Of a stretch of DNA of 64,000 nucleotides, positions 58,504 to 59,036 are shown one piece after another. The translations under genes were made by a program, and so were the position numbers. The notes under the pieces are model-generated. The model worked only from the letters and a program-made list of their open reading frames with translations, did no database searches and was not told the DNA's origin. Source of the DNA: Aristophania vespae (GTDB lineage Bacteria; Pseudomonadota; Alphaproteobacteria; Acetobacterales; Acetobacteraceae); the NCBI RefSeq assembly GCF_009906835.1, contig NZ_CP047652.1, forward strand, positions 1,364,001 to 1,428,000. Direction: 5' to 3'. Each line of letters opens with the position of its first letter. The first letter of the stretch is position 1.

Positions 58504-58728
58504 TTCCTTTAATCGACACAACAAAATATGAGGTTTTTGTGACTTTGAGGTCATAATAATCCTGCTGCACCGTGCCAGGGCTGGGTTACGAATAAGATTT
58601 AAAGGCTGGCTTGACCTAAAAACCATAAGTTCATCTCTTTCATAGAACGCCTCTCGCATAAGGCCAAGTCATGAGTTGCAGATCAATACTTGCGATAAAA
58701 ACAAATTAAGGGTACTGAACAATTGTGT

Positions 58729-59036
58729 GTCCGCGTAGCTCAGCAGGATAGAGCACAGGATTCCTAGTTTTAATTGGGCGCTAGGAGTGGGAAACCGCCT
58801 AGTGGATTCGCTCAAATTCGGGGAAAGCTCTGGTCTTCTGATCGTGCCAATCCCGAGCCAAGCTCTGGCTTTATAAGTCAGCAGAAGGTGTAGAGACTGA
58901 ACGGGTGACATCTGAGGCTTTGTGCTTATGATGAAGAGACAGTCCAGCTTACAAACACTCTCTCACGAGAGTGGCTATGAAAATAGTAGTGAGATGAATC
59001 CTGGGGCCGAAGGTTCGAATCCTTCCGCGGACACCA
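58729..59036 (+). tRNA. tRNA-Arg(CCT) interrupted by a group I intron
   Basis: Exon 1 is 58729-58765 and exon 2 is 58997-59036, with CCA encoded at 59034-59036. The cloverleaf is complete. The acceptor stem is GTCCGCG/CGCGGAC, the D stem GCTC/GAGC, and the anticodon stem CAGGA/TCCTG with loop TTCCTAA. The variable loop has five bases, and the T stem is GAAGG/CCTTC with loop TTCGAAT. The anticodon CCT reads AGG. The insert sits between positions 36 and 37 (after T58765), the same site as the published group I intron in Agrobacterium tRNA-Arg(CCU). The gene cannot work unless the insert is removed. It is 28 bases upstream of the phosphatase gene. Confidence 0.95.
58766..58996 (+). ncRNA. Group I intron, subgroup IC3-like, 231 nt
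   Basis: Self-splicing intron inferred from pairings read directly. The 5' splice site follows U58765, and guide GGG (58776-58778) pairs with exon CCU, giving the required U-G pair. P2 is 58779-58785 with 58798-58804 around a GGGAAACC loop. P3 is 58808-58813 with 58903-58908, and P4 is 58818-58822 with 58852-58856. P7 is 58895-58898 (GACT) with 58941-58944 (AGTC). P8 includes 58909-58912 with 58930-58933, and P9 is 58956-58962 with 58967-58973. The terminal G is 58996. Blocks such as TCAAATTCGG, AATCCCGAGCCAAGC and GAAGGTGTAGAGACT match the Azoarcus and Anabaena tRNA introns as I recall them. No open frame for a homing endonuclease fits. Confidence 0.93.

Follow-up and report, generated by a model that had tools for sequence, protein, structure and literature searches.

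Does the genome of Aristophania vespae carry a tRNA-Arg(CCU) gene that is interrupted by a group I intron, how would this intron leave the transcript, and how did it come to reside there? These questions are raised by a locus in a 64-kb stretch of DNA (the window, taken at its full length), for which a sequence-only reading had proposed a tRNA-Arg(CCT) gene split by a 231-nt group I intron. The coordinates of this gene proved exact, and the Rfam search, ARAGORN and a comparison with homologues agree on it.

At its default setting, without introns, ARAGORN found no tRNA in the 64-kb window, and the gene is also absent from the listed matches of the Rfam tRNA model. When introns were allowed, the program reported a tRNA-Arg(cct) interrupted by 231 nt after its nucleotide 37, which is position 36 in canonical numbering and the same site that had been read from the letters. 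The joined exons yield a complete cloverleaf with an encoded CCA (ARAGORN); hence, the cloverleaf is indeed complete only after removal of 58766-58996, and the expectation that intron-blind tools would miss the gene is borne out for ARAGORN at its default setting. Position 36 is what we take to be the insertion site of the alphaproteobacterial tRNA-Arg(CCU) intron family. The gene consists of the following parts:

58729..58765, + strand: 5' exon of tRNA-Arg(CCU), with the acceptor, the D arm and the 5' half of the anticodon arm, the anticodon CCU standing at its end (ARAGORN)
58766..58996, + strand: group I intron of 231 nt (RF00028, 53.2 bits; ARAGORN i(38,231); all three forward frames broken by stops)
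58997..59036, + strand: 3' exon of tRNA-Arg(CCU), with the remainder of the anticodon arm, the variable loop, the T arm, the acceptor and the encoded CCA (ARAGORN)

The covariance search for which the sequence-only reading had asked gave a full-length match to RF00028 (model positions 1-253 of 253) at 58760-58959, which scored 53.2 bits (gathering score, 50) and had an E-value of 1.1e-10 (cmscan). This is the sole Rfam match at the gathering threshold in the window (cmscan), and RF00028 has a single match at E <=0.001 in the entire genome, which comprises 2.02 Mb in two contigs and is 99.98% complete. Collectively, the intron-split tRNA-Arg(CCU) is beyond chance, and the A. vespae intron is a real, ordinary and new member of a known alphaproteobacterial intron family, close relatives included. 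What is mended here is a gap in annotation, as tools that ignore introns overlook the only AGG-specific tRNA gene that we found in the genome; tRNAscan-SE 2.0, according to the paper describing it, is not designed for the detection of group I introns.

No homing endonuclease is encoded in the three forward frames of the intron, all of which are broken by stops. A mechanically called ORF of 80 codons on the - strand (window 58669-58911) overlaps the intron and the 5' exon and is probably a product of chance. Scans in the vicinity of the gene detected no terminator and a single promoter site, which lies within the intron, compared with 0.7 sites in shuffled sequences.

Anatomy of the intron and conservation of its helices

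We drew the structure by hand on the window sequence and scored it on 51 distinct same-site sequences taken from 61 loci; the alignment of 51 rows includes one sequence (L167) with a run of N. All the pairings named by the sequence-only reading (P1, P2, P3, P4, P7, P8 and P9) can be drawn, and P5, P6, P6a and P10 can be added to them:

58773..58778, + strand: internal guide sequence (AUUGGG), in which GGG is the partner of CCU of the 5' exon in P1, with U.G at the splice site, and AUU the partner of AAU of the 3' exon in P10
58779..58804, + strand: P2 with a GAAA loop; 470/510 cells paired, 7/10 pairs changed on both sides
58808..58813, + strand: 5' strand of P3, pairing with 58903-58908; double changes in 3/6 pairs
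58818..58856, + strand: P4 (58818-58823 with 58851-58856) around P5 (58827-58847) (homologue alignment)
58857..58889, + strand: P6 (58857-58859 with 58887-58889) and P6a (58863-58884) (homologue alignment)
58893..58899, + strand: 5' strand of P7, the guanosine-binding helix, pairing with 58940-58945 (homologue alignment)
58903..58908, + strand: 3' strand of P3 (homologue alignment)
58909..58933, + strand: P8; 305/405 cells paired, 7/8 pairs double-changed, distal part variable in length
58940..58945, + strand: 3' strand of P7 (homologue alignment)
58948..58993, + strand: P9 stem (58948-58952 with 58989-58993), P9a (58956-58973) and P9b with a GAAA loop (58975-58986)
58996..58996, + strand: terminal guanosine of the intron (omega G); ARAGORN sets the same boundary independently in the window

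The guide can base-pair across the junction of the ligated exons (CCU|AAU). P1, including its U.G pair next to the 5' splice site, is identical in all 51 distinct homologues (153 of 153 cells paired). P10 is paired in 142 of 153 cells, the 11 misses representing one A.C combination. The omega G is a G in 51/51 rows, a count that is partly built in because the rule used to extract the sequences demanded a G at this place.

The pseudoknotted P3/P7 core is present together with P4-P6 and P8, and P3 (306/306 cells), P4 (306/306), P6 (153/153) and P7 (306/306) are paired throughout. P4 shows no two-sided changes, P6 is invariant, and the identical pair occurs in 51/51 rows at all six positions of P7; P1, P4, P6 and P7 are therefore uninformative by covariation, being paired in every cell without two-sided changes. 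P2, P3, P9a and P9b do covary, with double changes in 6/7 pairs of P9a (326/350 cells paired) and in 4/4 pairs of P9b (204/204 cells). Measured against shuffle controls, which ignore kinship among the 51 rows, the paired fractions stand at 306/306 versus a mean of 0.91 for P3, 0.92 versus 0.77 for P2, 0.93 versus 0.58 for P9a, 1.00 versus 0.88 for P9b and 0.96 versus 0.88 for the P9 stem (245/255 cells). By the same measure the weaker helices are P5 (288/355 cells; 0.81 versus 0.74), P8 (0.75 versus 0.68) and P6a (230/400 cells; 0.57 versus 0.50). A lengthened P1 does no better than the best shuffle (105/140 cells; 0.75 versus a shuffle mean of 0.72 and a best of 0.75). Hence, the core pairs are invariant or covarying in the 51 distinct homologues, and the outer stems are less consistent. 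One Arg(CCU) intron of the collection (L066; G066:C1:533826-534072) measures 314 nt, a long additional segment separating its guide from the 5' splice site.

Relatives, distribution and descent of the intron

The tRNA-Arg(CCU) group I intron family of alphaproteobacteria was reportedly treated by Reinhold-Hurek and Shub in 1992, and again by Paquin et al. in 1999 in a paper whose title is said to refer to its patchy distribution and horizontal transmission. We found no substantive difference between this family and the intron studied here: the tRNA, the anticodon, the small group I intron and the patchy distribution are the same, and A. vespae is a further host species.

The family was first found in Agrobacterium (PMC7717549). 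The same paper describes BbgpI of Bartonella bacilliformis, a group I intron whose host, a tRNA-Arg(CCU) gene, had been left without annotation. BbgpI splices in vivo and self-splices in vitro, and its stems P1 to P9 were drawn by the authors. BbgpI and the A. vespae intron share the type of intron, the host tRNA and, to judge from the flanking CCT repeats, the site; however, BbgpI belongs to another bacterium of the class and was tested at the bench, whereas the A. vespae intron is known from its sequence.

Within the Acetobacteraceae, a footnote to table 1 of the Asaia bogorensis genome paper (PMC4596401) marks five genera in which a group I-like sequence splits one tRNA-Arg, namely Asaia, Acetobacter, Gluconobacter, Komagataeibacter (row name inferred) and Gluconacetobacter; Granulibacter is unmarked in the same table. 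These cases resemble that of A. vespae in the bacterial family and in the insert homologous to group I introns in a single tRNA-Arg, but the footnote gives neither the anticodon nor the site. In our collection, the Asaia and Acetobacter loci carry the intron at the same tRNA-Arg(CCU) site. The intron is common in the Acetobacteraceae and is already in print.

To follow its distribution, we used a pattern covering the exon and the guide, not the whole intron, which was present in 90 of the 249 Acetobacteraceae genomes sampled (40 of 102 genera); this count misses some genomes in which ARAGORN detects the intron (G066, G148 and G209) and includes one (G014, locus L221) that ARAGORN does not confirm. 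The pattern for an uninterrupted gene matched 66/249 genomes (38/102 genera), and 94/249 genomes matched neither. RF00028 itself has matches in 67/249 genomes of the family, some of them within other tRNA genes. Both states occur within four genera (g21, g64, g68 and g76); in g68, for instance, the intron is present in G223 and the gene is uninterrupted in G068, G139 and G186. G014 is the only genome that matches both patterns (interrupted at G014:C293:2969-2999 in L221, uninterrupted at G014:C356:4186-4212). Since it is listed as 7% contaminated and ARAGORN reads no split tRNA in L221, it may represent a mixture or a broken copy. In a sample of the class, 27 of 289 genomes have RF00028 matches, four of them belonging to the Acetobacteraceae; ARAGORN reads 23 of the 26 loci newly drawn from this search, and two (L249 and L250) are Arg(CCU) with the intron at the same site.

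Ten genomes, represented by nine loci and the window, were used to compare the intron with LeuS, and the two distances are correlated with r 0.91, a value reached in 0 of 5000 permutations. By LeuS, no named relative in the searched collection is nearer than Acetobacteraceae bacterium ESL0709 (88% identity, best segment). A tree was calculated from 60 of 68 sequences, eight having been dropped at core extraction (including one Arg(CCU) intron, L250). In this tree, which is rooted at its midpoint, has some long-branched non-Arg(CCU) rows and contains no row named as the Agrobacterium or Bartonella intron, all 29 Arg(CCU) introns fall on one side of one branch (support 94/99). They group with each other and not with the introns of other tRNAs, whose host labels were assigned from the exon and intron ends. 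These data offer a further case for a long-known intron family, with descent and patchy loss or gain traceable across one bacterial family.

Splicing, decoding of AGG and alternative explanations

Splicing of the A. vespae intron can be proposed from the group I mechanism, as set out in PMC3984707, and by analogy with the Bartonella tRNA-Arg(CCU) intron that splices. The small intron sits between positions 36 and 37, and its forward frames contain no endonuclease gene. The transcript would adopt the group I core fold, in which the GGG of the guide docks exon CCU (P1, with its U.G pair), and a guanosine held by P7 would then attack after U36. The released 5' exon would in turn attack after the terminal G58996 while the AUU of the guide pairs with exon AAU (P10), and the product would be a normal tRNA-Arg reading AGG.

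The sequence-only reading had also suggested that viability depends on splicing if this tRNA is the only reader of AGG. The Rfam tRNA model gave at least 50 matches in the genome at E 0.001, and at least 50 at E 0.1. Among the 50 matches listed, ARAGORN identified arginine tRNAs with the anticodons UCU, CCG and ACG (two genes), and none with CCT. A loose anticodon-loop pattern hit 29 places, compared with 47 for its backward control, and ARAGORN detected a tRNA at none of the 29; one of the loci concerned (L266) contains a tRNA-Gln elsewhere. The joined exons, searched against the genome, recovered their own two halves at 100%, followed by the two Arg(ACG) genes at 75% over letters 6-77. A second, uninterrupted tRNA-Arg(CCU) gene was thus not found among the 50 listed tRNA matches, by the pattern or by the joined-exon search, and the interrupted gene is likely the sole CCU gene of the genome. 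This half of the suggestion is supported. A requirement of splicing for viability, however, does not follow, because a tRNA-Arg(UCU) gene exists and its product may read AGG by wobble. The codon AGG accounts for 51 of 16,517 codons (3.1 per thousand) in 41 mechanically chosen, non-overlapping ORFs of >=150 codons in the window.

We are highly confident in reading the locus as a tRNA-Arg(CCU) gene that holds a small group I intron, without an endonuclease in its forward frames, which would splice to give an AGG-reading tRNA and whose inheritance in the family was largely chromosomal, though it was repeatedly lost or gained. There are two rival explanations. The gene could be a decaying pseudogene whose intron no longer splices, AGG being read by tRNA-Arg(UCU) alone. 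The presence of the latter gene, the rarity of AGG in the window ORFs and a competing helix of 9 bp at the 5' splice site would agree with such a state, but the exons still yield the full cloverleaf with its encoded CCA, all drawn pairs of P1, P3, P4, P6 and P7 are kept in the window sequence, and the intron persists across lineages whose LeuS and intron sequences have diverged by as much as roughly a third, so that we regard decay as highly improbable. The competing helix appears in the minimum-energy fold calculated without pseudoknots (z -2.93), in which the exon/intron junction (AUUCCUAGU) pairs with the 5' strand of P2. It could, as modelled, slow splicing; we give it little weight because the P3/P7 pseudoknot is beyond what such folds can represent, and it is probably incidental, since its length of 9 bp is peculiar to the window sequence, the remaining 50 distinct homologues having 4-8 bp. 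That this modelled pairing might act as a switch which restrains splicing and so governs how much tRNA-Arg(CCU), the reader of a rare codon, is available in A. vespae is a notion to which we attach hardly any probability.

Alternatively, the intron might be a mobile element that arrived in this lineage recently by horizontal transfer and not by descent. Its presence is patchy even within genera, a distribution that would also fit transfer between lineages, related group I introns interrupt other tRNA genes of the family and the class, and the 1999 paper on these introns reportedly names horizontal transmission in its title. Against this, the forward frames contain no endonuclease, the intron distance tracks the LeuS distance in the 10 genomes, the 29 Arg(CCU) introns cluster together in the tree, and phage records yielded no match (0 in 50,697 when a phage source was considered). 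Recent transfer is thus unlikely, though less so than decay, and transmission of the intron within the family would have been mostly with the chromosome, with loss or gain occurring repeatedly. Knowledge of splicing and of tRNA biology is left unchanged by the locus.

Group I introns in other tRNA genes

Group I introns also interrupt several other tRNA genes of the Acetobacteraceae, namely those for Thr GGU (L206, L217, L219), Arg UCU (L211), Asn GUU (L047), Leu CAA (L058) and Leu UAA (L059, L213-L216, L222, L223), where several of the anticodons were read from ends in U and G and differ from the ARAGORN call (e.g., L211, L213, L222); L207, L208 and L210 gave no clear reading. A literature search on the Thr case returned a fungal report only. 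The tRNA-Leu(UAA) introns share with those of tRNA-Arg(CCU) a related core, a position in the anticodon loop and the bacterial class, but they differ in the host tRNA, in their insertion after position 34 and in their separate placement in the tree.

One tRNA-Leu(UAA) gene with a group I intron is carried by a Salmonella IncI plasmid (L046:1447-1745; NZ_CP028312.1, 55,435-55,733). It has an AAA ATPase gene and aac(3)-IId in its vicinity, and is absent from the plasmid gene table, which omits RNA genes. Among 72,556 plasmid records, 1293 contain a match to the stretch of 311 bp, and in 1272 of these the identity is >=99%. Although three small proteins adjoining the gene match nothing in the loci compared, the plasmid tRNA and its intron are 85% identical to L238, from a genome of the Alphaproteobacteria, and the intron groups with alphaproteobacterial Leu(UAA) introns in the tree, a hint from sequence comparison that this segment may have come from the Alphaproteobacteria.
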